From Streptomyces qinzhouensis (GTDB lineage: Bacteria; Actinomycetota; Actinomycetes; Streptomycetales; Streptomycetaceae), in contig NZ_CP042266.1 in assembly GCF_007856155.1 (NCBI RefSeq), forward strand, positions 5,766,001 to 5,830,000: a DNA stretch of 64,000 nt, given 5' to 3'. Under the pieces are notes generated by a model that saw nothing but the letters and a program-made list of their open reading frames with translations, made no database searches and was not told the DNA's origin. Of this stretch, positions 25,830 to 56,073 are shown piece after piece. How positions within the stretch are numbered: position 1 is the first letter of the stretch; each line of letters opens with the position of its first letter. Made by a program: the position numbers and the translations under genes.

Positions 25830-26428
25830 CCGGGTCGCTCCCCGCGGGGTCGCTTCCCGCTGTGGGGCCTGGGCTTCCGGTGCGCGCCGTTGGTGGCTTG
25901 TGTTGCGTGTCCGGCCGCGGGCAATGGGGGGACCCCCAGCGCCCCTGGGTGCCTGTGCTTGCTGCCCCTGCGCGGCGCGGCCCCTTCGGTGGTCGGGTCG
26001 CGTTACTCCGTGGGGTAGGCGCGGGGTCTTGTCGGGTGCGGCCGGGTCGGTGGCCTCCGGGCTCACCTCCTCGCAGACTGCGATGCACCGCCCCGAAACG
26101 CGTCCCTTCTTGTCGCAGCCTGCTGCGGGGGCGACCCTGCACCCCCCTCCGGAGATCACTCCGACTTGACCCCGGGGAGAACGAGTCCGCCCGGTCACCC
26201 ATCAAGTGGTCCATGCAGATCAAGGGGTGCCTGTGCCCCGAGACGCGTTACGCCTCCGGGGGCGGTGATCAGGAGAGTTTCCCTTCCCCGGTGACGCGCG
26301 ACAACTCCCGGGGCCTTGGGGCATGGACAGGTGGGGATCACGTGGGAGGGGGGTGCAGGGTCGCCCCCGCAGCCGACCGGCGAAAAGGTGGGTTCGCCCC
26401 TGGGCGGTGCATCGCCGGCGGCGAGGAC
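25830..26428. other. Non-coding stretch between ribF and the mobile element
   Basis: No gene is convincing here. The 600 bp contain one full ~160-bp repeat on the minus strand (26001-26160), a 175-bp unique spacer, and the left part of a second, inverted copy (26335-26434) that runs into the integrated element. Short open frames correspond to the repeats. Confidence 0.7.
26001..26160 (-). repeat. Intact ~160-bp intergenic repeat, copy 1
   Basis: Read on the minus strand this copy contains GGGGGGTGCAGGGTCGCCCC at one end and CCCCACGGAGTAACG at the other. It matches the two half-copies at 26335-26434 and 35561-35632. It can be read as an open frame encoding APDKTPRLPHG and GRCIA, which is preserved in the other copy. 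Whether it is translated is unknown. Confidence 0.8.
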
Positions 26429-26434
26429 GCGGAG
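26335..26434 (+). repeat. Left half of interrupted repeat, copy 2
   Basis: Inverted relative to copy 1, it matches the first ~100 bp, from the GGGGGGTGCAGGGTCGCCCC block to GGGCGGTGCATCGC. It ends at the GCGGAG core where the mobile element begins. The remainder of the copy is found at 35561-35632. Confidence 0.8.
26429..26434 (+). other. attL core (GCGGAG)
   Basis: This is the left junction of the element. Host repeat sequence lies to the left and element sequence (from CCTCACTAGTGAC) to the right. Joining the left flank to the right flank through this core restores a continuous repeat in the same reading frame as the intact copy. The exact crossover dinucleotide cannot be fixed from one sequence. 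Confidence 0.75.
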
Positions 26435-26466
26435 CCTCACTAGTGACAGTCCGGGTCAGTGCTGGT

Positions 26467-26495
26467 CCCCACACCTACCAAAACTAGGTATGGGG
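26467..26495. promoter_or_regulatory. Imperfect palindrome upstream of integrase
   Basis: CCCCACACCTA and TAGGTATGGGG form an 11-bp inverted repeat with one mismatch around CCAAAAC, ending about ten bases before the integrase start. It could be an operator or an arm site for recombinase regulation. Confidence 0.5.
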
Positions 26496-26504
26496 GCACA
26501 CATC

Positions 26505-28202
26505 ATGGGGATGACCAGCATGAATGCACCGGTAGCGCCGGTAACGGCCTACGACGGGTGCGGCATGTGCCTGCTCGGTCTGCGACGGCTCTCACGGGTC
26601 AAGGGGGCGACCAGCTCGCCGGAACGGCAGGAAGCGTTGGTCCTGTCTGCGGCTGAAGCAGTAGGCGGGCACATCATCGCGTGGGCCGATGACTGGGAGG
26701 TATCCGGCGCCACGGACCCGCTGACCCGTCCGGGGCTCGGCCCGTGGCTCCGGGGAGAGAAAGGTCCGTATGACGGTCTCGCCGGATCGGCAGTCGACCG
26801 CATCGGTCGCAACGTGGTGGACGTCCTCTCAACGGCGTACGCCAACCACAGTGCAGGCCGTGCTCTGGTTACCGCCGACCACAACGGCATCTGGGACCTG
26901 AACGACTCCAATCAAGAGAACGAACTCACGCTCAAAGCCATGGGCGCGCAGATGGAGCACCGGGCGATCAGGGAACGCAACCGTCAGGAACTCCGGCGGG
27001 CACGCGCGGTAGGGCAGATCAGTAGCCGCCCGTCATACGGCTACCGGAACGTGCGCCCCGCGCCCACCCAGAAGGTCACTCACCGGGAGTTGGAAGAGCA
27101 CTCCGCCGAAGTGCTGCGCGATGTGGCCCGGCGGATCCTGCTGGACACGACCGACAAGACCACCCCCTACAGCGAAGCGGCACGCCTCACGCTCGCAGGC
27201 GAGTTGGCTCCCGTGGACTGGCTCGCCAACCAGTACGGGCGGGAACCAAAGGGCATAGCATGGGGCGGAAAGTCCCTGCACGACATGTTGGTGAGCGAAG
27301 CAGCGCTCGGCTATCTCATGCACCAGGGGCGCCCTGTGCTCGACAAGAGCGGCAAGCCGTACCGGGTCGGGTCCCCACTGTGGGACCGGGCCACCCACAT
27401 TGCGTTGAAGGCCAAGCTTGCAGCCTCGCCGAAACGTACGATGAAGTCCCGGACGCCGAGGGCTCCGCAGCAGAAGACGCGCCTGAGCGGTGGTATCGCC
27501 ACGTGTGGCAACTGTGGAGAGAACATGTACCGCAACGGCACCACGAGCAAGGGCAAGTATCCCGCGTACCGGTGCACCGCCCGCAATCGGGGAATCCCCG
27601 GCTCCCAGCACTGCGGACGCAAGCTCGGAGCCCCGAAAGCCCCGGGTACCTTCGCTTCCCCGATCATCGCCCGGGCCGAGCTGGATAGCATCGTGGAACG
27701 CTGGTTCCTGGACCGGTTTGGGACCGCTCTACTCATGAAGTCGGTGTACGACCCGGGCTCCGGGCACGCCGCAGCGATTGCCGAGCTAGAAGCGGCGCGG
27801 GCACGGCTCCGGGACGACCGTCAAGCGGGCATCTACGACAGTCCTGATGATGCCGAGTGGTTCCGTACCCGCTTCGCTGACATCGGCCGTGAGATTGCCG
27901 AGCTGAAGAAACTTCCGGACCGTCCCGCAGGCTGGACCAGCGTCCCCACCGGGAAAACGGTCACCGACGAGTGGCACGCGACCACCACCGAGGCGGCCAA
28001 ACGGGAGATGCTCGAAGCGCACGGCATACAGGTGGTGGTCTACCCCACGGAACGAAACATGGGCCGTGTCGTCATCACCAGCACCATCCCCCATGATCCC
28101 GTCGCCGAGGCCACCGACACCGAGGGCAACCCCGGGCACCCCGCCATGCGAGGAGACAGGGGCAGTCACATGCGCATCGCGGAACCCGTACTGGCCGCGT
28201 AG
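26505..28202 (+). CDS. Large serine recombinase (integrase)
   Basis: A 565-residue site-specific recombinase. The N-terminal catalytic domain contains the likely nucleophile serine in LRRLSRVKG and the arginine motif VDRIGRNVVDV. A recombinase domain follows (SYGYRNVRP onward), and then a zinc ribbon with CGNCGENMYRNG and its second cysteine pair. A coiled-coil-like region sits near the C-terminus (AIAELEAARARLRDDRQAG). It should integrate the element at the repeat after ribF; excision would need a directionality factor, which I cannot identify. ATGs at 26490, 26505 and 26520 are all possible starts; 26505 and 26520 have G-rich sites at good spacing. Confidence 0.93.
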   Translation: MGMTSMNAPVAPVTAYDGCGMCLLGLRRLSRVKGATSSPERQEALVLSAAEAVGGHIIAWADDWEVSGATDPLTRPGLGPWLRGEKGPYDGLAGSAVDRIGRNVVDVLSTAYANHSAGRALVTADHNGIWDLNDSNQENELTLKAMGAQMEHRAIRERNRQELRRARAVGQISSRPSYGYRNVRPAPTQKVTHRELEEHSAEVLRDVARRILLDTTDKTTPYSEAARLTLAGELAPVDWLANQYGREPKGIAWGGKSLHDMLVSEAALGYLMHQGRPVLDKSGKPYRVGSPLWDRATHIALKAKLAASPKRTMKSRTPRAPQQKTRLSGGIATCGNCGENMYRNGTTSKGKYPAYRCTARNRGIPGSQHCGRKLGAPKAPGTFASPIIARAELDSIVERWFLDRFGTALLMKSVYDPGSGHAAAIAELEAARARLRDDRQAGIYDSPDDAEWFRTRFADIGREIAELKKLPDRPAGWTSVPTGKTVTDEWHATTTEAAKREMLEAHGIQVVVYPTERNMGRVVITSTIPHDPVAEATDTEGNPGHPAMRGDRGSHMRIAEPVLAA

Positions 28203-28310
28203 GACACGCGCTCGCTCGGTACGCTCACCGGTAGCCCGCGCCGGAATGGAGGCACGGAGTTAGGCACGGTCCCCAGCGATGGGGCGCAGTACGGCCGTAG
28301 CCGCATGGCT

Positions 28311-28348
28311 GGCCCCCGATGGTCCTTAGTTGATCGTCGGGGGCTTTG
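28311..28348 (+). terminator. Terminator after integrase
   Basis: GCCCCCGA at 28312-28319 pairs with TCGGGGGC at 28337-28344, followed by TTTGTC. It lies about 110 bp after the integrase stop. Confidence 0.75.
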
Positions 28349-28466
28349 TCATGCCCTCACACGGGCGTACGGGGTTCGTCACGTGCCACTCGCCGACTCG
28401 CCCGGTCCGGGGCTCCGCAGCGAGGCAAATCGGCGGGACGATGGCTGATGAGATGACGTTTTGATA

Positions 28467-28507
28467 CTTGGTTTTGATTGCACATAAAAAAATAGAGAGA
28501 AACCAAG
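28467..28507. promoter_or_regulatory. AT-rich inverted repeat
   Basis: CTTGGTTT (28467-28474) and AAACCAAG (28500-28507) flank a run with TTGCACATAAAAAAATAG. The segment 28452-28510 is strikingly AT-rich for this genome. It may be a promoter/operator or a DNA-unwinding site. TTGATA and TTGCAC hexamers are present, but no clear -10 pairs with them. Confidence 0.4.
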
Positions 28508-28790
28508 AACCACCCTCCGTCTGTCATGTCGCCATGAACGGCCCCGGGGTGCGGGTCATCGTCGGTCCTTACTACCGGGGCAACCGAGACCGGGATTACC
28601 GCACACCCGCCCCGCAGAGGGGAACACGGTGGTCTGAGTGCCCGGGTCTCACACGTAGCTCTGTCCGTGCAGCACGCACCCTCACGGGTGGCCGCAGTGG
28701 TCGTGTGGCAGAGCGCGGGGACTGCACCGCTCAACGATGTGCAGTCCCCTTGCCGTTCCGGACCGGTCGAGCCGGCGAGGGCGACACCGA

Positions 28791-28865
28791 GCCCGCTAAC
28801 CCAACGGCTAGAGGTGCGCCGTAACCAACCGGCAGAGTTCCCCGGTTCAAGTCCGGGGGCGGGCA
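28791..28865 (+). tRNA. tRNA-like sequence, anticodon unclear
   Basis: The ends form a seven-base-pair acceptor stem (GCCCGCT with GGCGGGC, one G-T pair) plus an unpaired A. A canonical T-arm (CCCGG-TTCAAGT-CCGGG) and a D-loop-like AACGGCTAGA are present, and the length is 75. The anticodon arm is irregular: only GCCG/CGGC pairs cleanly, leaving an eight-base loop TAACCAAC, and position 8 is A instead of T. It is either an unusual phage-type tRNA or a decayed one. No CCA is encoded. Confidence 0.45.
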
Positions 28866-28891
28866 CGACAACACAACAGAGGGGGGCGCAC

Positions 28892-29239
28892 ATGCGCTGT
28901 ATCGACTGTCCGGCTAACGCGACCCATCGGGGCCGCTGCGAGGACCACCACCGCGCGTACGAGAACAGGGCTCCGGTCCGGTCCCGCCGATCGCGAGGGC
29001 GCCGGAGAGCGAAGCGGTACGAGGGTGCCGCAAGGTTGCGTGCCCTGGTCGACGCTCGCGGGTCCGGTTGGTGTGCGTGGTGTCTGGAGTCCTTCCCTGC
29101 GGAAGGGCTTGAGATCGACCACGTGTGCCCGTTGGCCATGGGGGGCGAGGACATCGACAGAAACGTTCACGCGCTCTGTACGGGCTGCCACGGGCTCAAA
29201 ACCCGGACCGAGTTCGGGGGTGCCCGTGTCGACGCTTGA
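28892..29239 (+). CDS. HNH endonuclease, small (first copy)
   Basis: A 115-residue protein with an N-terminal cysteine pair (MRCIDCPANATHRGRCEDHH), a basic linker, and a C-terminal HNH domain. That domain has CAWCLESFPAEGLEIDHVCP and NVHALCTGCHGLKT, with two CxxC-type zinc pairs and the catalytic DH. The ATG at 28892 follows GGGGGG. Small HNH proteins beside terminase genes take part in phage DNA packaging. This one is 27 bp after the tRNA-like sequence and overlaps the next gene. Confidence 0.82.
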   Translation: MRCIDCPANATHRGRCEDHHRAYENRAPVRSRRSRGRRRAKRYEGAARLRALVDARGSGWCAWCLESFPAEGLEIDHVCPLAMGGEDIDRNVHALCTGCHGLKTRTEFGGARVDA

Positions 29240-29489
29240 GGCGTACGAACAGGCCGTAGCCGAGGGGCTTGGCAGTTGGTTGCCGGACGGGGTCACCCTC
29301 GCCGAGTGGCAGCGTCTGTACCGGCCCGTGGTGTGGGTTGACGAGGTCCACGTTCACCGCGCCACCGATGCGGACCGGCTACGGGCGGTGTGCGCTGTCC
29401 TCGCGGCTGCTGCGCTGCCCGACACGGTGTGGACCACCAGCACGGTTGATACCCCCCGCCCTGGTCCTGGTGCCCCTGGTGCCACGTAG
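29226..29489 (+). CDS. Small hypothetical protein between HNH genes
   Basis: The GTG at 29226 lies inside the end of the first HNH gene, and the reading frame ends inside the start of the second. The 87-residue product begins VSTLEAYEQAVAEGLGSWLP and is acidic and helical with a proline-rich end. I recognise no family. The tight overlaps on both sides support a real gene in one operon with the HNH pair. Confidence 0.6.
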   Translation: MSTLEAYEQAVAEGLGSWLPDGVTLAEWQRLYRPVVWVDEVHVHRATDADRLRAVCAVLAAAALPDTVWTTSTVDTPRPGPGAPGAT

Positions 29490-29871
29490 GCCCCGCCGCC
29501 CCTGTACCGCCCCCGGGTGCCCTGAACTGACCCCCCGTGGTGGCCGCTGCCCCAAGCACCAGAAGGAAGCAGACAGAGCGCGTGAGGCTGGTGGACGGAC
29601 GTACGACACGCGTTGGCAGCGCGTCCGGCGCGCGTATCTCTACGCGAACCCGTGGTGTGTCCTTTGCTCCGCCCTGGCGAACGTTGCCGACCATCACCCG
29701 GTGAGCCGGCGAGAGCTGATTGCCCGGGGCGAGCCGAACCCGGACGCGTGGAAGCACATGAGGCCCGTGTGCGCGTCGTGCCACAACGCCGAGACCGCGC
29801 AGCGCCAACCGGGCGGGTTCGCCGCTGAGCGGCGCTCAGAGCGCGAGGCGAACGACCGTCCGCCGTTCTGA
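29479..29871 (+). CDS. HNH endonuclease next to small terminase (second copy)
   Basis: From the GTG at 29479 the product has 130 residues: a cysteine cluster (CTAPGCPELTPRGGRCPKHQ), a helical segment (YDTRWQRVRRAYLYANPWC), then the HNH core CVLCSALANVADHHPVSRRE and VCASCHNAETA. This is the classic HNH arrangement found immediately before small-terminase genes in phages with cohesive ends and in capsid-encoding satellites, where it supports cutting by terminase. GTG at 29470 is an alternative start. It overlaps the preceding small gene. Confidence 0.82.
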   Translation: MPRRPRRPCTAPGCPELTPRGGRCPKHQKEADRAREAGGRTYDTRWQRVRRAYLYANPWCVLCSALANVADHHPVSRRELIARGEPNPDAWKHMRPVCASCHNAETAQRQPGGFAAERRSEREANDRPPF

Positions 29872-29992
29872 CGCGGTGGCCCCCGGGCGGGGTCCCCCTG
29901 CCCCTCTGACGCCAGATCGGCAGGGAGGCAAAAAACTCGCGCCGGAGCTGAAGGCATTTTTGGTAGCCCGAAACATCAGAAAACGAGGCTGA
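29872..29992. other. Spacer before small terminase
   Basis: This 121-bp gap contains AGGCAAAAAACT and GGCATTTTTGG separated by about 20 bases, near-mirror A/T tracts in a GC-rich setting. In phages this position often holds the packaging (cos/pac) site. I cannot identify a cut site. Confidence 0.35.
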
Positions 29993-30490
29993 ATGGCCGA
30001 CAGATACAGACCCAAACCCGCTATCCAGCGGGCACGCGAAGGAAACCCATCAAAAGGCAGCATAACCGAAAGGGTGGTTGTTCCCCGGGCGATCCTGGCT
30101 GAACCAAACTGGGTTGAAGTCTTCCGATTCTCAACTGATCCCGCTGTCGAATCAGCCAATGTCCGATGCCGAGATGTTGCCTCGCAGGAATGGCGACGCA
30201 TCGTCCCCGTTCTCGAAGTGGCGGCCGGTATCGGCGAGGTCGACCACACCACCGTGAAAGACCTCTGTGTCTGCGTTGCCCGCATCGACCAGGCGGAGCG
30301 GGACCTTTCCGAACGCGGGCTCATGGTGACGGCGGAGCGTGGGACGGTGAAGAACGGGGCCGCAACCATCGCGGGGCAGTATCGGACCCAACTCGCCCGC
30401 TACATCCGCGAGCTAGGACTCTCCCCGAGTTCACGGGCGGCGATCAGCCCGCCGGAATTCGATGACGACGATGACGACATCTTCGACTGA
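29993..30490 (+). CDS. Phage terminase small subunit, P27 family
   Basis: The 165-residue product has the P27-type small-terminase pattern. It has a basic N-terminus (MADRYRPKPAIQRAREGNPSKG), a central VASQEWRRIVPVLEVAAGIGEVDHTTVKDLC segment, a helical RIDQAERDLSERGLMV region, and TIAGQYRTQLARYIRELGLSPSSRAAI. It ends in a run of aspartates. Small terminases recognise the packaging site and load the large subunit; no large subunit is encoded here. In satellites, a private small terminase redirects helper packaging to satellite DNA. Codon use is visibly less G/C-biased than the host's. Confidence 0.87.
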   Translation: MADRYRPKPAIQRAREGNPSKGSITERVVVPRAILAEPNWVEVFRFSTDPAVESANVRCRDVASQEWRRIVPVLEVAAGIGEVDHTTVKDLCVCVARIDQAERDLSERGLMVTAERGTVKNGAATIAGQYRTQLARYIRELGLSPSSRAAISPPEFDDDDDDIFD

Positions 30491-30527
30491 ACACCCCGAC
30501 AGCAAGAAACAATCCAAAGGAGCAACC

Positions 30528-31463
30528 ATGGCACTAACACTGACTGAATCCGCGAAGCTCACCACTGACCACCTTCAGCAAGGAGTCATCGAGACTTTCG
30601 TTCAGGAATCACCCATTCTTGACCGTCTTCCGCTGATCACCTTTGAAGGCTCCGCCTTCGCTTACAACGAGGAATCCACCCTCCCCGGTGTCTCGTTCCG
30701 GGCCGTGAACGAGGCGTATCCGGAGAGCACGGGTTCAGTGAACCAGCGAATCGAGACGCTAGCTATTCTCGGAGGTGACTCGGATGTTGACCGGTTCATC
30801 GTCAAGACCCGGGGGAACCTGAACGAACAGCGGGCGATACAGACCGCCATGAAGATCAAGGCTGCGTCCATGCACTTCTCGGACCAGTTCTTCAACGGTG
30901 ACATGGCGGTGAATCCGAAGGGGTTCGACGGTTTGGGGAAGCGGCTCACCGGTCGTCAGGTCATCGACGCGAAGAGCGTCGGCCCGATCGCCAATGGCCA
31001 CGAATTCTTCGATGCACTGGACCGGCTTGCCGCATCTGTGCGCGGCATCAACGGTTCGAACGGCGCCCTCTACATGAACGGCGAACTGATCGCCCGTATC
31101 CGCTCCGGGTTCCGCCGGCTCGGCGGCGGCGAACTCCTCATGAGCGACATCGAGGGGAAGCGCACCATCATGTGGAACGGAATCCCCCTCCTCGACGCCG
31201 GACAGAAGCTGGACGGCACCGACGTTCTCCCGCTCACCGCCGGAACCGGGGGGAAGGAAACCGGAGACATCTACGCCGTCCGTTTCGGCACTACCGAGGC
31301 TGACGCGGCAGTCACGGGACTGACGAACGGCGGCATACAGGCTACTGACCTCGGCGAGGCGCACGACAAGCCCGTGTACCGGACCCGCATCGAGTTCTAT
31401 TGCGGCATCGCCGTATTCGGCGGGAAGGGCGCCGCACGCCTGATGAACGTACTGAACGGCTGA
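30528..31463 (+). CDS. HK97-fold phage major capsid protein
   Basis: The ATG at 30528 has AAAGGAG upstream and gives 311 residues. The sequence opens MALTLTESAKLTTDHLQQGV and contains SPILDRLPLITFEGSAFAY, GDSDVDRFIV, NGDMAVNPKGFDGLGKRL and GALYMNGELI, the layout of HK97-like major capsid proteins of Streptomyces phages. It lacks the long N-terminal scaffold domain removed by a protease, which suits the absence of a protease gene. Directly after it comes a terminator, so the packaging unit is HNH, small gene, HNH, small terminase and capsid. An encapsulin is less likely given the terminase neighbour. Confidence 0.88.
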   Translation: MALTLTESAKLTTDHLQQGVIETFVQESPILDRLPLITFEGSAFAYNEESTLPGVSFRAVNEAYPESTGSVNQRIETLAILGGDSDVDRFIVKTRGNLNEQRAIQTAMKIKAASMHFSDQFFNGDMAVNPKGFDGLGKRLTGRQVIDAKSVGPIANGHEFFDALDRLAASVRGINGSNGALYMNGELIARIRSGFRRLGGGELLMSDIEGKRTIMWNGIPLLDAGQKLDGTDVLPLTAGTGGKETGDIYAVRFGTTEADAAVTGLTNGGIQATDLGEAHDKPVYRTRIEFYCGIAVFGGKGAARLMNVLNG

Positions 31464-31475
31464 CACGGGATCATA

Positions 31476-31522
31476 GAGCCCCCGCACTCGTCACCCATCA
31501 TGGGGGCGGGTGCGGGGGTCTC
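31476..31522 (+). terminator. Terminator between capsid gene and convergent regulator
   Basis: GAGCCCCCGCAC (31476-31487) pairs with GTGCGGGGGTCTC (31510-31522) with one bulge, followed by TTATTG. It serves the capsid transcript and may also serve the convergent regulator gene ending at 31530. Confidence 0.8.
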
Positions 31523-31529
31523 TTATTGT

Positions 31530-32864
31530 TCAGGTCACCCGAGAAGATTGCCGAGACCGCTCGAAAATTTCCCGGGCAATGCCATTGGAGATGTATGGCA
31601 GAAGAAGTTGAGAGATCTTCTTGACTTGCCTATCAACTCTCCCGGAATGAATTTTCGGATACTTGTCCAGCACTTCACTCCACGTTGCACAGGCTGCTTC
31701 CAGATGCCCTAATTGGAGCTGCCGCTCAGCCAGCATGAGATGAAACCGAATACCGGAAACCTGAGTTTCAGATGGGCCTCGCAACTGAAAATGCAGTTCA
31801 AGGGATTCGATGCTACCTGAAATATCCCCCATGGCGTGTCGGACCTGAGCCGTATGGTACGCCAAGGTGGCCGGTCCGTAACCCCCAAACGGCCCCGGAC
31901 CGCTTTCAGCTACGTCTATGGCCTTCTCCGTTTCCATGATGCTGCGCAGTGCCAAATTCCTCTCACCAGCCACGGCAAATGAATGTGCTTGCTGTCCCGC
32001 CATAAATGCGCGCAAACGTGGCCCCATTTTGGGGGATGTGGCGGCAGCAGCATTGGCCAAGCGAACGGCAATGGAGCCGTGGCCGAGGTCGGCAGCCTGG
32101 ACGCTCATTCCTCGCAGGACGTGGCAGTACGTCAAATGGTCAGTACTGGCACCCGCCAATTCCAATCCCTTGACGTAGTATTCTTGAGCCAGGCCGTGAA
32201 GGCCTTCATCAACCGCCATCCAACCGGTTAGATAGGAAAGGAATGATGCGGCCGACATCATTGCCTTGCGGACGTCATCGGTAGCATCTGCTCGCAAGTA
32301 AGGCGCGACGGTGTTCGCCAAGAATAGACCTGCCAGCGGCCGCGAATGCCTTCCGCCGAATTGGCTATATATTTCAGTAAACCGATCCGTCATCTTTGCG
32401 ACCATGTCGACGTCCGACATTCCGATACGTGACACCGTTCCCGATCGAACCGATTCCATCCGACCTACGACGTCCAGCCAATTTGGGATGCTCACGGCGA
32501 CAGAGAAGAGGCTCGCGCCAATGAATAGACGCCGCTGGGGGAGCGAATTGGTGGGGCTAAGGTCAATGAGGGCATCGGATGTACTGTCAGAATTTTCGGG
32601 ACCGCCAGATGGGGGAGGAAATCCCGCCGCTGTCGACGTGATCGACCGTCCCAGCTTCCGCGCGAGGGCTTCACGGATGAGCGGCCGCGTTGATTCCTTC
32701 GGTACGTACCCGCCGAGCCATTGGCTGACCGATGGCGATTGGTACTTGGTGGGAGTGCCGCGTTCGGTACCAATGCGGTTGACCGCTTGCACGAACTGAC
32801 GGTGAGTCCATCCCGTCTCGCGGAACAGCAGTGCTAGATGTGTGTTCGGTTCGCGGGTTGCCAA
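31530..32864 (-). CDS. XRE-type HTH regulator with TPR-like domain
   Basis: A 444-residue regulator. The N-terminal helix-turn-helix is in residues 5-75 (LLFRETGWTHRQFVQAVNRI, SVSQWLGGYVP). A linker and a short hydrophobic stretch near residue 110 (RRLFIGASLFSVAVSI) follow, then about 300 residues of helical TPR-like repeats. The start is TTG at 32864, ten bases after GAGGAG. This Streptomyces family often sits beside DUF397 genes, and one lies on the other side of the divergent promoter (34098). It probably controls the rightward small-gene operon. Base composition is low-GC relative to the host. Confidence 0.85.
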   Translation of the reverse strand: MATREPNTHLALLFRETGWTHRQFVQAVNRIGTERGTPTKYQSPSVSQWLGGYVPKESTRPLIREALARKLGRSITSTAAGFPPPSGGPENSDSTSDALIDLSPTNSLPQRRLFIGASLFSVAVSIPNWLDVVGRMESVRSGTVSRIGMSDVDMVAKMTDRFTEIYSQFGGRHSRPLAGLFLANTVAPYLRADATDDVRKAMMSAASFLSYLTGWMAVDEGLHGLAQEYYVKGLELAGASTDHLTYCHVLRGMSVQAADLGHGSIAVRLANAAAATSPKMGPRLRAFMAGQQAHSFAVAGERNLALRSIMETEKAIDVAESGPGPFGGYGPATLAYHTAQVRHAMGDISGSIESLELHFQLRGPSETQVSGIRFHLMLAERQLQLGHLEAACATWSEVLDKYPKIHSGRVDRQVKKISQLLLPYISNGIAREIFERSRQSSRVT

Positions 32865-33005
32865 CGATGGTCAACTCCTCGCGTTGAGCGGCCGTTTAGC
32901 GCTTTTACACGCTGGTCCTGTCACCACGGTACCGCTGTCAGTGACTGCGGAGTTGCCTAGTACAAGCACGGATCGACCGGGCAACGTCACGTCAGAGGAC
33001 AGGGC
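32865..33005. promoter_or_regulatory. Divergent promoter region of the element
   Basis: The 141-bp gap lies between the leftward XRE gene and the rightward small-gene operon. It holds a near-inverted TGTCAC/CTGTCAGTGAC arrangement at about 32930-32946 and an AT-richer stretch (TTTAGCGCTTTTACAC) at 32895-32911. It is the likely control point for both transcripts. I cannot fix -35/-10 elements with confidence. Confidence 0.4.
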
Positions 33006-33221
33006 ATGAACCGCATCACCGCCGGGCCCCCGGACCAGGAGGCTGTCTTACTCGTCGCGCTCCTTGCGGCAGGTGGCTTCTGGGGACTTGCCCCGGCATG
33101 GGTGCCCCGGACGGGCTACGTCCGGGACCGGGACACTCTGATCCGCTGCCGGGCCGGACTGGTCCGGATCCTTCAGGGCGAGTCGATCAGCGCGCGCCGG
33201 AGGTACAGCCGTGGGCGCTGA
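33006..33221 (+). CDS. Small hypothetical protein with one hydrophobic segment
   Basis: The product has 71 residues with one likely membrane span (AVLLVALLAAGGFWGLAPAW, about 14-33) and a basic tail. AGGACAGGG precedes the ATG. It starts the rightward gene string of the element, and its last codons overlap the next gene. No family recognised. Confidence 0.6.
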   Translation: MNRITAGPPDQEAVLLVALLAAGGFWGLAPAWVPRTGYVRDRDTLIRCRAGLVRILQGESISARRRYSRGR

Positions 33222-33444
33222 CACTCCATGGGAACCGCAGATTGACGACATCGTCCGGGACTCCGAGACCAACCGGATCGGACGGGTCATGGACCGTTTT
33301 GGTGTTCGCTACTCGCTCCGACCGCTCAAAGGCGGGTGTGAATGGGAAGCACGGCCCGGCGATCTTCACCCCGTAACCATGTCCGACCTGCTCAGTACGG
33401 CAGTTGCCGAACTAAACCAGCGCAGCAGCAAGGGAGTTCTATGA
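33211..33444 (+). CDS. Small hypothetical protein (77 aa)
   Basis: Starting with GTG inside the previous gene, this encodes 77 residues with a compact beta-rich look: IDDIVRDSETNRIGRVMDRF, YSLRPLKGGCEWEARPGDL. Proteins of this sort are common in Streptomyces mobile elements, but I know no function for them. Its stop overlaps the next start (ATGA). Confidence 0.65.
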   Translation: MGADTPWEPQIDDIVRDSETNRIGRVMDRFGVRYSLRPLKGGCEWEARPGDLHPVTMSDLLSTAVAELNQRSSKGVL

Positions 33445-33548
33445 AGACCATCGACCAGCGAGCGGCAGTGGCTGAGGCGGTGTGGATGGTCGTGCAGATC
33501 ATCGCTGCCGTTGTCGTAATCGCCCTCGCCACCCTCAGGCAACTGTGA
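33441..33548 (+). CDS. 35-residue membrane peptide
   Basis: ATG at 33441, preceded by AAGGGAG, overlaps the stop of the gene before it, and its own stop overlaps the next GTG. The peptide has a short polar head (MKTIDQRAAVAEA) and one span (VWMVVQIIAAVVVIALATL). The double overlap and good ribosome site argue that it is translated. A holin-like or toxin-like role is possible but unproven. Confidence 0.55.
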   Translation: MKTIDQRAAVAEAVWMVVQIIAAVVVIALATLRQL

Positions 33549-33964
33549 CCGCCCCGGATGAGGGGGCCACCCTCGTCTGCGGGGAAGAGTTGGTGGTGTT
33601 CGAGGAGATCCGGGAGCTGGTCATCCCGTGTTTCCCGAGCGAGGACCCCGCACGGATTAAGGCGCGGATCCGGTGCCCTCTCAGCAGTCGTCACGCCGGT
33701 CGGCACACCGGCCTGGTGTGGGAACTGGTGAAGTCCAAGCCCGGGAACGTCTGGCTCACGTGGTGCCGCATTGGCAGTGCCTACGAATGGGGGATGCACG
33801 CCCGGTCAAGCTGTCCGAAGCGCCACGACGGCGGAACCGACTGTGGTCTGTACGAGGGCCACGACCTGGGGCGCTCGTACGAACCGACCGACGAACAGAC
33901 CGCTTTCATCGCAGCCGCCGGCGCGGCCCACTTCCTCCGGCGGAACAACGCCGAGAACTGTTAG
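33545..33964 (+). CDS. Cysteine/histidine-rich hypothetical protein
   Basis: The product has 139 residues from a GTG that overlaps the stop of the membrane peptide. It contains IRCPLSSRHAGRHTGLVWEL and SSCPKRHDGGTDCGLYEGHD, two Cys/His clusters that could bind zinc. No known family. It closes the four-gene overlapping run of the element. Confidence 0.62.
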   Translation: MTAPDEGATLVCGEELVVFEEIRELVIPCFPSEDPARIKARIRCPLSSRHAGRHTGLVWELVKSKPGNVWLTWCRIGSAYEWGMHARSSCPKRHDGGTDCGLYEGHDLGRSYEPTDEQTAFIAAAGAAHFLRRNNAENC

Positions 33965-34097
33965 CTACCCGACCACCGGATCCTCACAGGCGATCCGGCA
34001 CCCCGCCCCACGGAAAACATGCTCCCTCACGGGACGGGACGCGAAACGGCGGCGGGGACCGACTCCCCGCACCACAGAGAGAAAGGAACCCACAGCC

Positions 34098-34307
34098 ATG
34101 CACACAGCCCCCGGGTTTAAGTTCGTCAGCGCGGCTGCCTGCCGTGACCCGAAGGTGGGCAACTGCCCGCAGGTCGCCACCAACATTCCGGGAGTGGTCG
34201 CGTTGCGCGACAGCGAGCGACCCGACACCATCGTCACGATGACCCCGGACCAGTGGGTCACCCTGACTGACGCGGTCAAGGCCGGAGAGTTCGACCTGTC
34301 CGCCTGA
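34098..34307 (+). CDS. DUF397-domain protein
   Basis: A 69-residue protein of the DUF397 family, the same family as BldB: FVSAAACRDPKVGNCPQVA, VVALRDSERPDT and TPDQWVTLTDAVKAGEFDL. The ATG follows AAAGGA. DUF397 proteins usually pair with an XRE regulator in Streptomyces, where they modulate its activity. Here the partner is probably the XRE-TPR regulator in the same element. Confidence 0.78.
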   Translation: MHTAPGFKFVSAAACRDPKVGNCPQVATNIPGVVALRDSERPDTIVTMTPDQWVTLTDAVKAGEFDLSA

Positions 34308-34319
34308 GAGTAGGACACC

Positions 34320-34487
34320 GTGGAATGCCCCCGCTGCGCCGCAGACTGCATCACCGACCCTGAGAACGGGTTGAGCTGGTGCGCGCAGTGCGGGGCATTC
34401 TTCGCACTTACCCTCCACGCATGCCGGGGCCTGCGGTGGTGGCGCAACGCTGCCACCCGAGCGCCGCAGCGTCCACGCGATCACTGA
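34320..34487 (+). CDS. 55-residue zinc-ribbon-like protein
   Basis: A GTG thirteen bases after the DUF397 stop opens a 55-codon frame starting VECPRCAADC with a second pair WCAQCG, a likely small zinc ribbon, followed by a basic tail (LRWWRNAATRAPQRPRDH). AGGA lies just upstream. It ends five bases before the convergent GntR gene. Confidence 0.5.
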   Translation: MECPRCAADCITDPENGLSWCAQCGAFFALTLHACRGLRWWRNAATRAPQRPRDH

Positions 34488-34491
34488 TCCG

Positions 34492-34752
34492 CTAGACCCC
34501 GCCTTGGTCGTCTTCCTCGTTCCAGCCGTCAGGGTCAGCGACGAACGAACCCATGCCGGTCACAGTCGTGATCAGCCCTTGTTCCCGTAGCGCGGCTGTT
34601 GCTTTACGGATGGTCACACGAGCGACACCGAACTCTGACTCCATCTGAACTTCCGACAGTTGATGTCGCGGCGGGTACTCGCCGCTGAAGATCCGTTGGC
34701 GCAGGACATCGGCAATCTGCTGCCACTTGGGGCGGGTCGGGTCGTACTCCAT
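34492..34752 (-). CDS. Short GntR-family repressor
   Basis: The 86-residue product is essentially one winged-helix GntR DNA-binding domain: WQQIADVLRQRIFSGEYPPRHQLSEVQMESEFGVARVTIRKATAALREQGLI. No effector domain follows; the tail is acidic. Stand-alone GntR proteins repress the control genes of Streptomyces integrative elements. I chose ATG 34752 because it starts the domain, although its ribosome site is weak. An upstream in-frame extension would be hydrophobic and atypical. Confidence 0.82.
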   Translation of the reverse strand: MEYDPTRPKWQQIADVLRQRIFSGEYPPRHQLSEVQMESEFGVARVTIRKATAALREQGLITTVTGMGSFVADPDGWNEEDDQGGV

Positions 34753-34784
34753 CACGCAGGAACCGTACACACCTACGCTCAATA

Positions 34785-34833
34785 GCACATAGATACTCAT
34801 AGCTATAGCTAGGTATAGACAGGTATCTACAGG
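34785..34833. promoter_or_regulatory. Candidate GntR operator / AT-rich promoter
   Basis: Just upstream of the GntR gene is an AT-rich run with the palindrome TAGCTATAGCTA and two direct AGGTAT repeats (in AGGTATAGACAGGTATCT). This is unlike the surrounding composition and suits autoregulation and control of the divergent gene at 34927. Confidence 0.5.
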
Positions 34834-34926
34834 CGTGTTTTCCTTCACATGCCAAAGCGCCCCGGCAACCGCTTAGGACCGGTCACCGGGGCTCCGACCG
34901 AACAGCTTTCTAGGAGCTGAACGACC

Positions 34927-35256
34927 ATGCGCGACTCTATCGCCCGTGCCCTCGCATGGGCGCTGTGCCTTTGCTTCCCCTCCCGGGGCCGACACCGCGC
35001 CCCCGAGCCTGCCCAACCCGCACCGGTCACCATCTGCGCCCCGCGCACACCGATCCCTGTGCACGTCCTCGCACGGACCATGCCCACTCGCGAGCAGTTC
35101 CGCGTACCGCCGTACATGGCCGAGTGGTCCGCTCGCCAGGAGCGGGAGGAGCAACGTCGTTGGGAACGCCGTATCGCCCTTGCCCTCGCGGATATAGGCA
35201 TCGACTACCCGTACACCGCCGAGAACGTCCACCAGGTAACGGGGGCAGCAGCATGA
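34927..35256 (+). CDS. Hypothetical element protein (109 aa)
   Basis: The product begins MRDSIARALAWALCLCFP and has a proline-rich middle and a charged helical end (MAEWSARQEREEQRRWERRI, ALADIGIDYPYTAENVHQV). The ATG is preceded by TAGGAGCTG. It is divergent from the GntR gene and coupled to the next gene by ATGA. No function recognised. Confidence 0.65.
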   Translation: MRDSIARALAWALCLCFPSRGRHRAPEPAQPAPVTICAPRTPIPVHVLARTMPTREQFRVPPYMAEWSARQEREEQRRWERRIALALADIGIDYPYTAENVHQVTGAAA

Positions 35257-35450
35257 CACGTGATGCCTTCGTGAACGACGTTCCAGAACCGTTCACCGCA
35301 TGGTGTGTGCGCTGCGGACGGCAGACTTCCGCCCCGGTGGAAGTAGGGGTCATGGACCGTGGAAGCAGTGCCCCGCTGATGCAGTACGCGTGCCCCGAGG
35401 ACGCCACTCGCTACGGCGCGGGACCGACACCGTCCGACGTGATCCGGTAG
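35253..35450 (+). CDS. Small cysteine-containing hypothetical protein
   Basis: A 65-residue product starting inside the previous stop. It contains FTAWCVRCGRQ and YACPEDATRY, suggesting a small zinc-binding fold. It is the last gene of the element before a strong terminator and the right attachment site. Confidence 0.65.
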   Translation: MTRDAFVNDVPEPFTAWCVRCGRQTSAPVEVGVMDRGSSAPLMQYACPEDATRYGAGPTPSDVIR

Positions 35451-35466
35451 TACCCCGTCAGCGAAG

Positions 35467-35500
35467 AGCCCCGTTCGGCCATGTGCCGAGCGGGGCTTTC
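35467..35500 (+). terminator. Terminator at right end of element
   Basis: AGCCCCG (35467-35473) pairs with CGGGGCT (35491-35497), with a further TCGGC/GCCGA stem inside, followed by TTTC. It closes the last element operon about 60 bp before the attachment core. Confidence 0.85.
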
Positions 35501-35560
35501 TGCTGTAAACAGACTCCCCACCAGCACACATGCGCCCTAGACTGCCTTTTGAGGGGACTA

Positions 35561-35566
35561 GCGGAG
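35561..35566 (+). other. attR core (GCGGAG)
   Basis: This is the right junction. Element sequence lies to the left (ending GGGGACTA) and host repeat to the right (GTGAGCCCGGAGG). It matches the left core exactly. Confidence 0.75.
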
Positions 35567-35632
35567 GTGAGCCCGGAGGCACCCGACCCACCCGCACCGG
35601 ACAAGACCCCGCGCCTTCCCCACGGAGCAACG
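35561..35632 (+). repeat. Right half of interrupted repeat, copy 2
   Basis: It matches the second part of copy 1: GTGAGCCCGGAGGC, GACAAGACCCCGCGCCT and CCCCACGGAGCAACG. Together with 26335-26434 it makes a ~166-bp copy, nearly the length of the intact one. Confidence 0.8.
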
Positions 35633-35744
35633 GTCACCCATCTTTTGAGCCCCGCCGGCGTTTGAGGCGCAGCAGGGCCCGCACGCTGCGGGTCGCCCAC
35701 CCCCGGGGCCCCGGGGCAACGTACCCCCAGCGGGAGGCGACCCG

Positions 35745-51394: not shown

Positions 51395-53164
51395 ATGACT
51401 GACAACGACAAACAGCCGGAGCCGACCCCCGCCGAACAGCACGAGAAGGACCTCGCCCGGGTCGAACGGCAGCTGGACGTCACCGATGTCGCCCGCAAGG
51501 TCACCTCGATCTTCGGCGGCAACGGCTTCTTCGCCCGTACCGATTTCGAGGGACACGAGCTCAACATCATGATCGACATGGTGTTGAACGCGAACCCGGC
51601 CGACCTCGAAAGCGCCGGCGACAACCTCTGGAACGCCCGCAAGGACCTCCGCGACGCCGCCGAGGAGCTCCGCACCAACATCAAGGAAGTCCACTGGGAA
51701 GGCGCCTCCGGCGAGGCATTCCGCGACTTCGGCCGCGCCCTCGCCGACCACGCCGACCAACTCGGCACCTTCGCCGACATCGCCGCCACCCAGATCCGCG
51801 TCGCCGGCACGGGCCTGGCCTCGGTCCGCAGCTCAATGCCGGAACGCGACCTCCGCCTGATCAAACACAACGCCAAGACGATGCCGCTCCCGGAACGGAT
51901 CGACACCAACCCCGACTATGTCGCGGCCAAGAAGGTGGAGAAGAACCGCCAGGAGGCCATCAACCAGATGAACCGCCTGGCGTCGTTCTACGCGGTCTCG
52001 GAACAGACACTGGCGGGCCAGGAACCGCCGACGTTCAGCAAGGTACTGAACGCGGACGTGCCGCGCCCGTCCGGCGAGGTAATCGACGACCCGTCCGTCA
52101 TCGGGAGGCGGCCGCGCGGTCTGTCGGAGAGTCCGAGGAACGGGACGGCATCCGAGCGGCGCGAAGGCTCGAGAGGGACAGGGGAGAACCGTCGACCGGA
52201 GACCGTCGGCGCCCCTCCGTTGGGTACTCCTGAGCGAAACCCGTCGATGGAACTCGACAGTGCGGCCCCCCCTCCCACCACACCTAACAGCGTTACCCCC
52301 GTCGCGCCCTCTCCCGGACCGATCGGTGGCCCTCCGACGGTGCCGGGTCCGTCGACGGTCCCACCGGTGCCCGGTGCGTCGCCGGGTAAGTTCGGGCCGG
52401 GGCCCTCGGCCCTGTCTCCGACCGTCTCCAAGGCCACGGGCGGCCCGGGACTCGGGGGCGGGAAGGCAGTGGCAGCTGGCGCCGGCGGCCACCCCGGTGC
52501 GCAAGGGCGCCCGGGCATTGTTGGCGGCGGCCCCTCGGCAACGGGAGGGTCGAACCCCACAGGGCGGCCCACGGGACCCATGGGAGGCGGAAGTGCAGCG
52601 TCGTCCACGGGGCGTGCCAATCCCCCGGGAATGGGGTCGGCGATGGGCGGACAGGGGCCGATGACCGGCCGAGGGGGCACGGCGGCACAGCCCATGGGCG
52701 GGCGTACGCCGTCTTCGTCGGCCGGGTCACGTGCCGGCCGTGACGGGATTGTTGGTGGTACGCCCCAGCGGGCCCCCGGCGGCGCGAGTGGACCGCGAAT
52801 CCCCAGAGGGAACGTTGTGGGAGCGGAGGGGCAGACTGCTGCACGTTCCGGGACAGCCAGGCCCGGCCAAGCAGGCGTCGTCGGTGCAGGACCTGTGACG
52901 GGAGCTTCCAGGGCGACCGGCGGCGGAACTCCAAGTAGTCATGGCGTCGTCGGAAGGCCCAAGGCAGAGAACGGTTCGTTCTCACGTCCGGGGCAAGGCA
53001 GCTTTACCACTGGCGGGGCGGGGCTCGTTGGTGGCCGTCCGGGGCGAAATCCGTCCGGCAGCGAAGGAGACCGCACCGAATCGGCGCGTCCGGACTACCT
53101 GACGGAAGACGAAGAGACGTGGACGGCACAGCGGCGCAACGCCGGCCCGCCGGTGATCGAGTAA
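51395..53164 (+). CDS. WXG-like protein with long Pro/Gly/Ser-rich tail
   Basis: The 589-residue product has a helical N-terminal domain of ~190 residues containing AEELRTNIKEVHWEGASGEAFRD, a W-x-G turn between two helices like WXG100/PPE-type ESX substrates. About 350 residues of disordered Pro/Gly/Thr/Ser-rich sequence follow, ending in a short acidic segment. Such a tail could span the cell wall. It starts three bases after the preceding gene and is followed by the second mycosin. Likely an ESX substrate or surface component; exact role unknown. Confidence 0.78.
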   Translation: MTDNDKQPEPTPAEQHEKDLARVERQLDVTDVARKVTSIFGGNGFFARTDFEGHELNIMIDMVLNANPADLESAGDNLWNARKDLRDAAEELRTNIKEVHWEGASGEAFRDFGRALADHADQLGTFADIAATQIRVAGTGLASVRSSMPERDLRLIKHNAKTMPLPERIDTNPDYVAAKKVEKNRQEAINQMNRLASFYAVSEQTLAGQEPPTFSKVLNADVPRPSGEVIDDPSVIGRRPRGLSESPRNGTASERREGSRGTGENRRPETVGAPPLGTPERNPSMELDSAAPPPTTPNSVTPVAPSPGPIGGPPTVPGPSTVPPVPGASPGKFGPGPSALSPTVSKATGGPGLGGGKAVAAGAGGHPGAQGRPGIVGGGPSATGGSNPTGRPTGPMGGGSAASSTGRANPPGMGSAMGGQGPMTGRGGTAAQPMGGRTPSSSAGSRAGRDGIVGGTPQRAPGGASGPRIPRGNVVGAEGQTAARSGTARPGQAGVVGAGPVTGASRATGGGTPSSHGVVGRPKAENGSFSRPGQGSFTTGGAGLVGGRPGRNPSGSEGDRTESARPDYLTEDEETWTAQRRNAGPPVIE

Positions 53165-53189
53165 GTACAGGGAAGGCGCGGAAGTCGGG

Positions 53190-54446
53190 ATGACGGCAGG
53201 AATGATCCAGATGCGGAAGCAGAGCATGCCTCGCGCGCTCCGGCAGGGAATGCTGTGCACTCTGGCGGCAGCCTGCGTCTGGGCCGGTGGCGCTGTTGGC
53301 GCGGCCCCAACCGCTGCTGCTGCGGGGCAGCCCGGTCAGTGGTACCTCGACGCCATGGGTGTCGCGGAGATGTGGAAGGTCACCACAGGTAAAGGCATCA
53401 CCGTTGCTGTCGTCGATACCGGAGTAAACGCCACCACTCCTTCGCTGCGGGGACAGGTGGTCAAAGGCTTCGACGCAACCGAGGCCGCAGGCGCCGAGAC
53501 CGACGACTACGACGGCCATGGAACGACCATGGCCGAGATGATCGCCGGTACTGGTAAGGGGGGCGGTCTCCAAGGCCTCGCCCCCGGGGCGAAGATCATG
53601 CCCATGCGCATTGCCAATACCGAGTTTCAGAATGAGAACAAGGTCAACGCCCAGGACTCGGCGGATGCCATTAAGGCTGCAGCAGACAGTGAAGCCAAGA
53701 TTATCAACGTGTCCTTCGCGAGCGAGTTCTCCACCGCACAAGAGCGCGCTGCGGTTGAGTATGCTCACGGTAAGGGGAAGCTGATCTTCGCAGGTGCAGG
53801 AAACAACGCGAAGAGCGGCAATAAGCCACAGTACCCGGCCTCCTATCCCGATGCCATTGGTGTTGCTTCGGCTGACAAGAAGGGAACGGTCGCCGAGCAC
53901 TCTCAGCATGGTGACAACGTCGATATCACGGCGCCGGGGACTGACGTTCCGGTCTGGTGTGACGATTCCTTCAAGGAGTACTGCAAAGGAAGCGGCACAA
54001 GTGCTGCCACCGCCATTGCATCGGCTTCGGCGGCCCTCGTCTGGTCCGCCAACCCCGACTGGACCGCGAACCAGGTTCTCCGTGCCCTCATCGACACCGC
54101 AGGTCGAAGCTGGGCCAAGGGCACCCGGAGCAACTTCCTCGGTCACGGTCTGATCCGCCCGGCGCAGATCGTCGTCGACAAGAAGGGCGATCCCGGCGCC
54201 CCGGACATCAGCCCCCTTACCAACCGGAAGACCGGTGGTTCACCCGCCGCCTCCGCGCCGCCCTCTGCACCAGCCTCGTCACAGCCGCCGAAGAGCAATA
54301 CCGAAGACGGTACTGCCGTGGCAGGCTCCAGCGAGAAGGCGGAGAAGAAAGACGACAGCAACACCGGCCTCATCGCCGGCGGTGTCGCAGTCGTCTTTGT
54401 TCTCGCCGGAGGAGCCTTCTTCTTCCTGCGACGGCGCGCCGCCTGA
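53190..54446 (+). CDS. Second mycosin-like subtilisin protease
   Basis: This 418-residue S8 protease has a signal peptide (LCTLAAACVWAGGAVGAAPTAAAA). The triad is Asp in VVDTGVN (about 75), His in DGHGTTMAEM (about 110) and Ser in GSGTSAAT (about 270). A linker rich in Ser/Pro/Ala and a C-terminal span with a basic end (GGVAVVFVLAGGAFFFLRRR) follow. It resembles MycP in plan but differs clearly in sequence, and its codons are less G/C-biased than those of the first mycosin. That suggests separate origin and a different substrate. Confidence 0.88.
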   Translation: MTAGMIQMRKQSMPRALRQGMLCTLAAACVWAGGAVGAAPTAAAAGQPGQWYLDAMGVAEMWKVTTGKGITVAVVDTGVNATTPSLRGQVVKGFDATEAAGAETDDYDGHGTTMAEMIAGTGKGGGLQGLAPGAKIMPMRIANTEFQNENKVNAQDSADAIKAAADSEAKIINVSFASEFSTAQERAAVEYAHGKGKLIFAGAGNNAKSGNKPQYPASYPDAIGVASADKKGTVAEHSQHGDNVDITAPGTDVPVWCDDSFKEYCKGSGTSAATAIASASAALVWSANPDWTANQVLRALIDTAGRSWAKGTRSNFLGHGLIRPAQIVVDKKGDPGAPDISPLTNRKTGGSPAASAPPSAPASSQPPKSNTEDGTAVAGSSEKAEKKDDSNTGLIAGGVAVVFVLAGGAFFFLRRRAA

Positions 54447-54514
54447 GCCCGGCCCCTCGCACACCAGCCACTACGCAAGACCCCAGAAAGAAATAGGGAA
54501 AGGAAGACCGGGAT

Positions 54515-54880
54515 ATGTCAGCAGTCCAGAAGGTCGGCGATCAGAGTCTCAAGGATTTCCAGGACGAGATCTCGAGGCAGTTCGAGGACATCAAGGGGCA
54601 ATTGCAGGGCCTGCAGGGTGTCATCGACAGCCTGGAAGGTTCCTGGAAGGGCATCGGCGCCGGCGCCTTCGATGCGAAGCAGGCCGAGATCAACCAGGGC
54701 ATGGTGCGCATCGCGAAGCTGCTCCTCAACTTCCAGGAAGCGATTCAGGTCACCCGTACCACGGCCAGCAACACCGAAGACGAGGTCCGCGCCGCTCTCC
54801 AGGGCGTCGATGTGACCGCGGGCTTCTCCGGTGACGCCGGGGCGACCCGCACCGCGACCTCGAACATCTCCGGATACTGA
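54515..54880 (+). CDS. WXG100-family ESX protein (first of pair)
   Basis: A 121-residue helical-hairpin protein with the W-x-G turn in LEGSWKGIGAGAFDAKQAEI. AAAGGAAG lies upstream. WXG100 proteins are secreted as heterodimers by type VII machines; the partner is the gene 65 bp downstream. The C-terminal 25 residues end in ATSNISGY. Orthologues of S. coelicolor esxA/esxB are likely, but which is which cannot be set from sequence alone. Confidence 0.87.
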   Translation: MSAVQKVGDQSLKDFQDEISRQFEDIKGQLQGLQGVIDSLEGSWKGIGAGAFDAKQAEINQGMVRIAKLLLNFQEAIQVTRTTASNTEDEVRAALQGVDVTAGFSGDAGATRTATSNISGY

Positions 54881-54945
54881 CGAGCCTCGCAGCTCGGCGC
54901 ACCACAGCAGGACCACTTTCACTCATGGCAGTTGGAGGACGATTC

Positions 54946-55245: not shown

Positions 55246-55311
55246 AGCGGCTCGTTCGGTCCCGTCCGGGCCGGGCCGGGCCGAAGCGATGAGGCCGGCA
55301 AGAGATAACGC

Positions 55312-55348: not shown

Positions 55349-55398
55349 TCGTTTCAACCCGGTGGTGTTGGCCGTCGGCCAACACCAAGGCGCCCGCC

Positions 55399-56067: not shown

Positions 56068-56073
56068 TTAACA

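Follow-up and report, generated by a model that had tools for sequence, protein, structure and literature searches.

A 9-kb Streptomyces island with a lone capsid gene is a probable cos-packaged satellite of Rowa-like phages

In the Staphylococcus aureus pathogenicity island (SaPI) SaPIbov5, the protein Ccm is an HK97-fold homologue of the helper phage's capsid protein that takes the pentamers of T=4 heads; according to the excerpts on which we draw, it cannot form shells alone and it blocks the helper (PMC8569155, PMC5052747; the other papers cited here are likewise represented by excerpts). In SaPIpT1028, capsids are redirected not by a major capsid protein (MCP) but by a protein likened both to CpmB and to the phage scaffold (PMC12409344). 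Among phage-inducible chromosomal islands (PICIs), PmCI172 and EcCICFT073 carry MCP homologues, and PmCI172 causes small capsids (PMC6092414). Candidate PICIs of Mycobacterium have been defined by an integrase and an MCP, those of slow growers corresponding to phiRv1 and phiRv2 (PMC10654092). The authors of a survey of prophages in actinobacteria expect some of the small elements to be satellites, and describe experimental work on such elements in these bacteria as lagging behind (PMC10023795). Here we describe an island of about 9 kb in a 64,000-nucleotide stretch of the Streptomyces qinzhouensis chromosome (the window; G000:C1:5766001-5830000, from an 8.15-Mb single-contig genome), which we judge, with good confidence, to be a satellite that depends on Rowa-like Streptomyces phages as helpers, is packaged through cos and has an MCP that would redirect the assembly of helper capsids. 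Four observations point to satellite nature and helper dependence, and lend support to the original prediction of the same: the island family is conserved, its cos core also occurs in phages, genes for late functions, replication and the recombination directionality factor (RDF) are missing, and the genome also holds a full-size prophage in which the integrase block is the same. Our search of open-licence papers found none on this Streptomyces/Kitasatospora island family or on satellite TerS-cosB switching.

The island comprises about 9,135 bp (about 26427-35561) inserted within a host intergenic repeat. Joining the flanks restores an uninterrupted copy of this dispersed repeat (146 bases, aligned in full at up to 91% identity with 4 gap positions), which places the island ends within a few bases of 26427 and 35561, close to the boundaries first proposed (26429-35566). 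Its GC content is 0.638, against 0.703 for the whole window. Open frames run throughout its genes, which encode a serine integrase, two HNH endonucleases, the small terminase subunit (TerS), an MCP, XRE/TPR and GntR regulators and several small open reading frames (ORFs) (Table 1). These frames and the family matches confirm the predicted serine integrase, two regulators, TerS and HK97-type capsid protein and their intact frames. An HNH gene had also been predicted, and there are in fact two. The predicted head module of HNH, TerS and MCP genes is real, but the terminator said to end it was not found 3' of the MCP gene in a scan of 31400-31600. The MCP most likely starts at 30528, preceded by AAAGGAG, rather than at 30462, giving a product of 311 residues, and a solved-structure search returns one weak relative, 3j4u, itself a major capsid protein.

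The functions that a phage would need beyond these were sought in several ways. When 14 structural, packaging and lysis proteins of Rowa were compared with 26300-35700 by tblastn, only TerS (55%) and MCP (64%) matched, and the Rowa primase, polymerase, RDF, repressor and integrase had no match in the island. Family-library searches recognised no large terminase subunit (TerL), portal, protease, scaffold, tail or lysis family among the ten island proteins, nor among the best 25 of 54 families for 39 further ORFs of this island and seven related ones. Both results agree with the gene absences noted at the outset (large terminase, portal, protease, tail and lysis). The RDF, primase and polymerase of a prophage in the same genome, described below, likewise have no match in this island or at 15 related loci. 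With portal, protease, scaffold and TerL absent, the island MCP can act only inside a helper's assembly line, and the idea that it is a capsid-forming PICI in reduced form, building a capsid of its own, is left unsupported.

The island belongs to a family. MCP searches gave matches in 9 of 150 genomes (E up to 1e-3), in 27 of 392 (E up to 1e-15), in 3 of 394 and 13 of 394 (both E up to 1e-40), and at nine loci in GTDB contigs; some genomes were sampled more than once, and prophages, remnants and distant MCPs are among the matches. After duplicates were merged there are 16 islands (the window's own, L015, L018, L019, L020 (=L162), L021 (=L056), L022, L057, L058, L059, L060, L061, L153, L154, L155 and L156), with L022 (a 4.4-kb contig) and L156 (1.4 kb behind the MCP) only partly covered. 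The MCP is apparently intact in 13 and frameshifted in three (L022, L061, L155). In none of the 16 did tblastn with the Rowa TerL, portal, protease, scaffold, connector and tail proteins find a match. The Rowa-like operon TerL-portal-protease-scaffold-MCP is absent from the window island and present in all six Rowa-like prophages (L016, L062, L063, L064, L065, L157), each with all four of TerL, portal, protease and scaffold. The islands occur in many species with differing integrases, and in seven of them, the window's included, the distance from integrase to last gene is 7.9-8.9 kb. L060 is the basal member, with the gene order MCP-HNH2-TerS. Counted neither as islands nor as Rowa-like prophages were distant MCPs (about 30-36% identity, which make up many of the matches in the 150- and 392-genome samples), L068 and L158 (G648; MCP 60%, with protease and distant portal matches). 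An 8.7-kb viral contig, L070, was considered as a second satellite but is taken as a phage piece on reading its 560-residue terminase-like and 485-residue portal-like ORFs; another, L168 (8.4 kb), has TerL and portal.

In a tree of 27 MCPs, 14 island MCPs fall on one side of a fully supported branch (100/100) and 13 phage, prophage and viral-contig MCPs on the other, the same split as in an earlier tree of 11 island and 12 phage-side sequences (100/100). For these trees L022 was trimmed by 25 residues behind its frameshift and L153 lacks its first two residues; the viral-contig MCPs L069, L070, L071 and L072 were put on the phage side by label, and L069 and L072 have no match to Rowa TerL. By the Nei-Gojobori method, pairwise dN/dS ranges over 0.049-0.201 for island MCPs (28 of 36 pairs of nine sequences, dS < 1.6) and 0.099-0.239 for phage MCPs (21 of 21 pairs of seven), with many dS values near saturation. 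The low island values indicate that the capsid gene has been kept working in the islands.

The same genome has a second MCP match, within an approximately 38.5-kb prophage (6498077-6536583; L016, L171, L172). Matches to Rowa proteins give this prophage TerL, portal, protease, scaffold and tail genes, and it also encodes a Gp3-like RDF, a D5/Toprim primase and a family-A polymerase. Neither a Rowa-type lysin nor a Rowa-type repressor was found in it, so its completeness stays putative; it is a candidate helper, ready to hand within one chromosome. Window positions 26403-29940, which hold the left end, integrase, HNH1, HNH2 and cos core (3.5 kb), are 99.5% identical in DNA to the prophage, and at the right end 35467-35640, host repeat included, is 93% identical and 34855-35500 is 83% identical. 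Such near-identity to a full-size neighbour, together with the existence of decayed relatives, is what one would expect if the island were itself a decayed prophage, its head genes left over from a Rowa-like prophage after loss of the TerL-to-scaffold segment and everything beyond the MCP. We think this very improbable, since the two TerS proteins are only 42% and the two MCPs only 64% identical, the island MCPs group together to the exclusion of all 13 sampled phage-side MCPs, the same reduced gene set recurs in 16 islands, MCP dN/dS is low, and TerS and cosB switch together, as described below. A recent deletion from this particular prophage is rejected on the same TerS and MCP differences and the separate island clade. 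The original prediction had named obvious prophage remnants as the finding that would count against it; the window copy does not look like one: its MCP groups with those of other islands, in a clade that is under purifying selection, and its TerS falls in a clade of island TerS proteins. Elsewhere in the chromosome, a third and decayed relative near 6.420 Mb (L017, G000:C1:6412001-6432000) retains the last 55 MCP residues (94.5% identical) and a right-end fragment.

Packaging signals link the island to its candidate helpers. The 17-mer cos core matches exactly at 29918 (chance expectation 0.11 for matches with up to 3 mismatches) and is common to the island, Rowa, Nesbitt and the prophages. 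The deposited Rowa genome ends inside CGGCAGGGA|GGCAAAAA, and the Nesbitt record begins at the corresponding cos point of its prophage relative L064, deposited phage genome ends being assumed to be virion ends. The DNA 3' of the core, putative cosB, comes in three types: I (CGCCGGAGCTGAAG...), II (CGCATGGCTCATTNGAGC...) and R (CGCCGCAACTGG...TTTGCGCGG). In a TerS tree of 14 rows, five island TerS proteins form a clade (100/100) that joins Rowa and L157 in a group of seven (100/100); opposite them stand Nesbitt, L060 and the remaining prophages (100/100). Each of the three sets has its own cosB type: the island five have type I, Rowa and L157 type R, and the other prophages, Nesbitt and L060 type II. 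Including eight viral contigs placed in TerS sets by TerS identity, TerS set and putative cosB type are concordant in 21 of 21 loci scored; type I occurs in 5 of 5 islands with a satellite TerS and in 0 of 15 phage-side loci, and L060 combines a group-II TerS with a weak type II cosB. Islands that lack TerS carry a phage-type cosB in all ten cases (II in eight, R in two). On the MCP tree TerS needs at least four changes (L060 left out of this count). The cosB states were first assigned by eye as a copy of the TerS states, and a script then gave the same outcome by scoring each locus against three consensus strings drawn from the first loci, L153-L157 and L163-L170 having been added after the pattern was first seen; the best scores are weak for L060 (0.57), L063 (0.61), L154 (0.62), and L020 and L155 (0.64 each).

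Rowa and the group-II prophages have TerS proteins that are 42-44% identical beside TerL proteins that are 77-84% identical, which indicates that one TerL lineage works with different TerS proteins, and we infer that the island TerS works with that lineage as well. By sequence, the islands appear either to carry a TerS-cosB pair of their own or to mimic the helper's cosB. The imported type I cosB was not seen in any phage examined. We regard as evenly poised the broader proposal that these islands are a new actinobacterial satellite family in which the sole virion gene is a head-size-setting MCP that works in the helper's line, and in which packaging identity is swapped as a module, either by importing a TerS-cosB pair or by shedding TerS and copying one of two helper cosB types, around one cos core and one permissive TerL lineage. 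The family would show, as a minimal case from nature, which head genes a satellite cannot do without: an MCP, with or without a TerS-cosB pair. Through the natural swaps between close relatives (L154/L156, L019/L021), recognition between TerS and cosB becomes open to direct test in this phage group. One genome, G798, holds two family islands of different packaging types: L154 (on C1) has TerS and type I, and L155 (on C12) has no TerS, type II and a frameshifted MCP.

We propose the following cycle for the satellite. The integrase would keep the island in a host intergenic repeat until the RDF of an active helper excises it, and the helper's primase and polymerase would replicate it. The island TerS together with helper TerL would choose the satellite cosB and cut at the helper-shared cos core; TerS-less islands, having copied a helper-type cosB, would use helper TerS. 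The island MCP would then join the helper assembly line, with helper scaffold, protease and portal, and steer it toward small heads, sized for about 9 kb or a low multiple of that and too small for the helper genome, as proposed by analogy with SaPIbov5 Ccm, before helper tails and lysis complete the particle. In this scheme the island contributes integration, its HNH proteins, an MCP, and a packaging address together with the protein that reads it. Judging from the genes that are absent, the helper must provide TerL and the scaffold, protease, portal and tail proteins as well as lysis, replication and the excision factor.

Under the T^1.5 rule of thumb, a head of roughly T=3 size would be expected for 9.1 kb, or a T=4 head for a dimer. 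Four island units (36.5 kb), on the other hand, come close to the prophage's 38.5 kb, and a satellite without capsid remodelling genes is reported in the paper on phage-inducible chromosomal minimalist islands (PICMIs), as far as our excerpt of it goes, so that the MCP might form or join heads of normal size in which the island travels as a multimer. We hold this to be unlikely, as it would leave a diverged, selectively kept MCP without a clear role, and the best-studied satellite MCP homologue redirects size (PMC8569155). It is less likely again, in our view, that the island is a resident anti-phage device with little or no transfer of its own, its MCP, with or without TerS, acting as a dominant-negative decoy against Rowa-like phages. 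Ccm alone does strongly block its helper (PMC5052747), and of the 10 genomes searched whose island MCP is apparently intact, 8 keep the gene although no Rowa-like TerL is present; a pure decoy, however, would have no need of a conserved cos with matched cosB or of an intact integrase, and the islands are spread over many species with different integrases. Truncated MCPs (L017, L023, L024, L025, L026, L066, L067, L160, L161) were also considered as deliberate short capsid decoys and rejected: their variable break points, the lack of a cos core beside the MCP (checked partly on the plus strand only and partly on both, with the exact core for L160 and L161) and the run of some into unrelated frames mark them as decay. 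A further truncated match, G952, lies outside this set.

Several points weigh against a helper-dependent satellite that redirects capsids. Mobilisation and small capsids are deduced for an element known here from its sequence alone, and capsid redirection by the island MCP is argued by analogy. No satellite replication gene was recognised among the ten island proteins or in the best 25 of 54 families for the 39 further ORFs, although one of an unknown type may be present. Only three TerS/cosB pairs, on supported branches of the MCP tree, are phylogenetically independent; all are concordant (sign test p 0.25). Decay is common, with nine fetched MCP-only remnants and three frameshifted MCPs against 13 that are apparently intact; degraded relatives, the other finding that was to count against the prediction, therefore exist, beside those 13. 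A Rowa TerL match is present in only 2 of 18 genomes bearing islands or remnants, the window's own (81%) and G396 (32%); in most cases, then, the helper would have to arrive by infection. Lastly, no island of the MCP clade was recognised in the viral collection, where five MCP matches have 51-56% identity and all eight cos matches come with TerL.

Table 1 Features of the island, in window coordinates.
Feature	Position	Strand	Evidence and remarks
Left half of interrupted host repeat (attL side)	26402-26427	.	Rebuilds repeat with 35562 onward; uninterrupted copies elsewhere in genome
Large serine integrase, 570 aa	26490-28202	+	PF00239, PF13408, phrog_95; 99.8% identical to own-genome prophage's integrase
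HNH1 endonuclease; true start possibly further in	28667-29239	+	PF14279/PF01844; 99.5% identical to prophage copy
HNH2 endonuclease; start approximate	29389-29871	+	phrog_144, E 3e-21 on longer ORF 29269-29871; 100% identical to prophage copy
cos core CGGCAGGGAGGCAAAAA	29918-29934	+	Between HNH2 and TerS; Rowa's deposited genome ends within CGGCAGGGAGGCAAAAA
Putative cosB, satellite type (CGCCGGAGCTGAAG...)	29935-29970	+	Class I score 0.96; DNA identity with prophage stops at 29940
TerS, 165 aa	29993-30490	+	PF05119, phrog_83; satellite TerS clade of five, 100/100
MCP, 311 aa	30528-31463	+	PF20911, phrog_212 (E 3.6e-83); satellite MCP clade 100/100; dN/dS; ORF open from 30462
XRE/TPR-type regulator, 444 aa	31530-32864	-	phrog_10886, E 1e-66; homologues in L018, L023, L059, L155
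Small protein of unknown function	33211-33444	+	phrog_15135; homologue in L026
ORF with DUF397-like C-terminus; coding start uncertain	33771-34307	+	PF04149 below cut-off; homologues in L018, L026, L066
GntR-type regulator, 118 aa	34492-34848	-	PF00392; homologues in many related islands
Conserved right-end small protein	34927-35256	+	Within 34855-35500, 83% DNA identity to prophage right end; island homologues
Right half of interrupted host repeat (attR side)	35562-35632	.	Own-genome prophage's right end adjoins same host repeat

The dispersed host intergenic repeat of about 100 bp (26001-26093; 26402-26427 with 35562-35632) is the attB of both elements that share this integrase. A search with one copy finds it in at least 28 places in the genome, the flanks of island and prophage included (40 of 118 candidates scored), and the use of one repeat by two such elements implies that the integrase has many potential sites. 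In 4 of 19 fetched ribF loci of relatives (L119, L120, L122, L129) an ABC-like gene lies inside the locus of about 4 kb, so no island sits in between there; in the other 15 the gene was not found within that distance. Shortly 5' of the cos core (window 29860-29917), an inverted repeat such as GGGGGTGACCCCC is seen by eye in many islands and prophages, and could be a packaging-enzyme site or a terminator. Elsewhere in the window, GC content falls to 0.61-0.64 at 53001-59000, against 0.70 for the whole, possibly marking another acquired region.

Among described systems, capsid-forming PICIs share MCP, TerS and HNH genes with the island; they also have portal, protease, connectors and TerL, none of which was found in it (PMC10690885). 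That identity is rejected, as no portal, protease, connector or TerL match was obtained with Rowa queries in any of the 16 islands, nor do these functions appear among the families matched by the ten island proteins or the best 25 of 54 for the further ORFs. MulchRoom and MiniFlayer, Streptomyces satellites, have their own MCP, TerS and HNH and no replicase, as here, and MulchRoom a GntR-like regulator as well; unlike the island, the two have TerL, portal, scaffold and adapter, a tyrosine integrase or none, terminal repeats and virulent BE-cluster helpers (PMC10690885). TerL, portal and scaffold of the Mulch/Flayer type were not found in the island with Rowa proteins and family libraries as queries, and the longest direct repeat listed around it is 41 nt, against about 1 kb for the Mulch/Flayer terminal repeats, although no search was aimed at such repeats. 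PmCI172 and EcCICFT073 have an MCP homologue in common with the island but Gram-negative hosts, a likeness by description (PMC6092414). The Mycobacterium candidate PICIs are actinobacterial and, like the island, pair an integrase, in some a serine integrase, with an MCP; by the operational definition used there (a phage-like region, other than a prophage, that holds an integrase and an MCP) the island is a candidate PICI, again a likeness by description. Neither cos or TerS-cosB analysis nor induction is part of that account as excerpted (PMC10654092).

The Rowa-like phages themselves (Rowa, Nesbitt, SF1) have MCP and TerS of the same families as the island's, with the same cos core seen for Rowa and Nesbitt, and a serine integrase and HNH genes in Rowa. 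They differ in being full phages of about 42-43 kb, and are candidate helpers: Rowa, Nesbitt or related prophages would fill that role. As in SaPIbov5, the cos core is shared with phages, and the lone MCP homologue comes without portal or protease. Both elements are integrated and carry cos of the helper type; in SaPIbov5 all other particle components come from the helper, as they would here (PMC8569155, PMC5052747). The island differs in its HNH genes, its serine integrase, the TerS and own cosB of some members, its size (9 kb, against about 14 kb) and its unrelated host group, and its Rowa-like candidate helpers have a separate scaffold gene, unlike SaPIbov5's helper. SaPIs also have replication genes of their own (PMC5052747); none was recognised in the island with family libraries and the prophage primase and polymerase as queries. 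Its MCP is 62-66% identical to those of Rowa-like phages, against 24% between Ccm and its helper's capsid protein, so it may fill more than pentamers. By analogy, the capsid-redirecting Ccm of SaPIbov5 would be the nearest tested precedent for the island MCP, nearer than a capsid-forming PICI.

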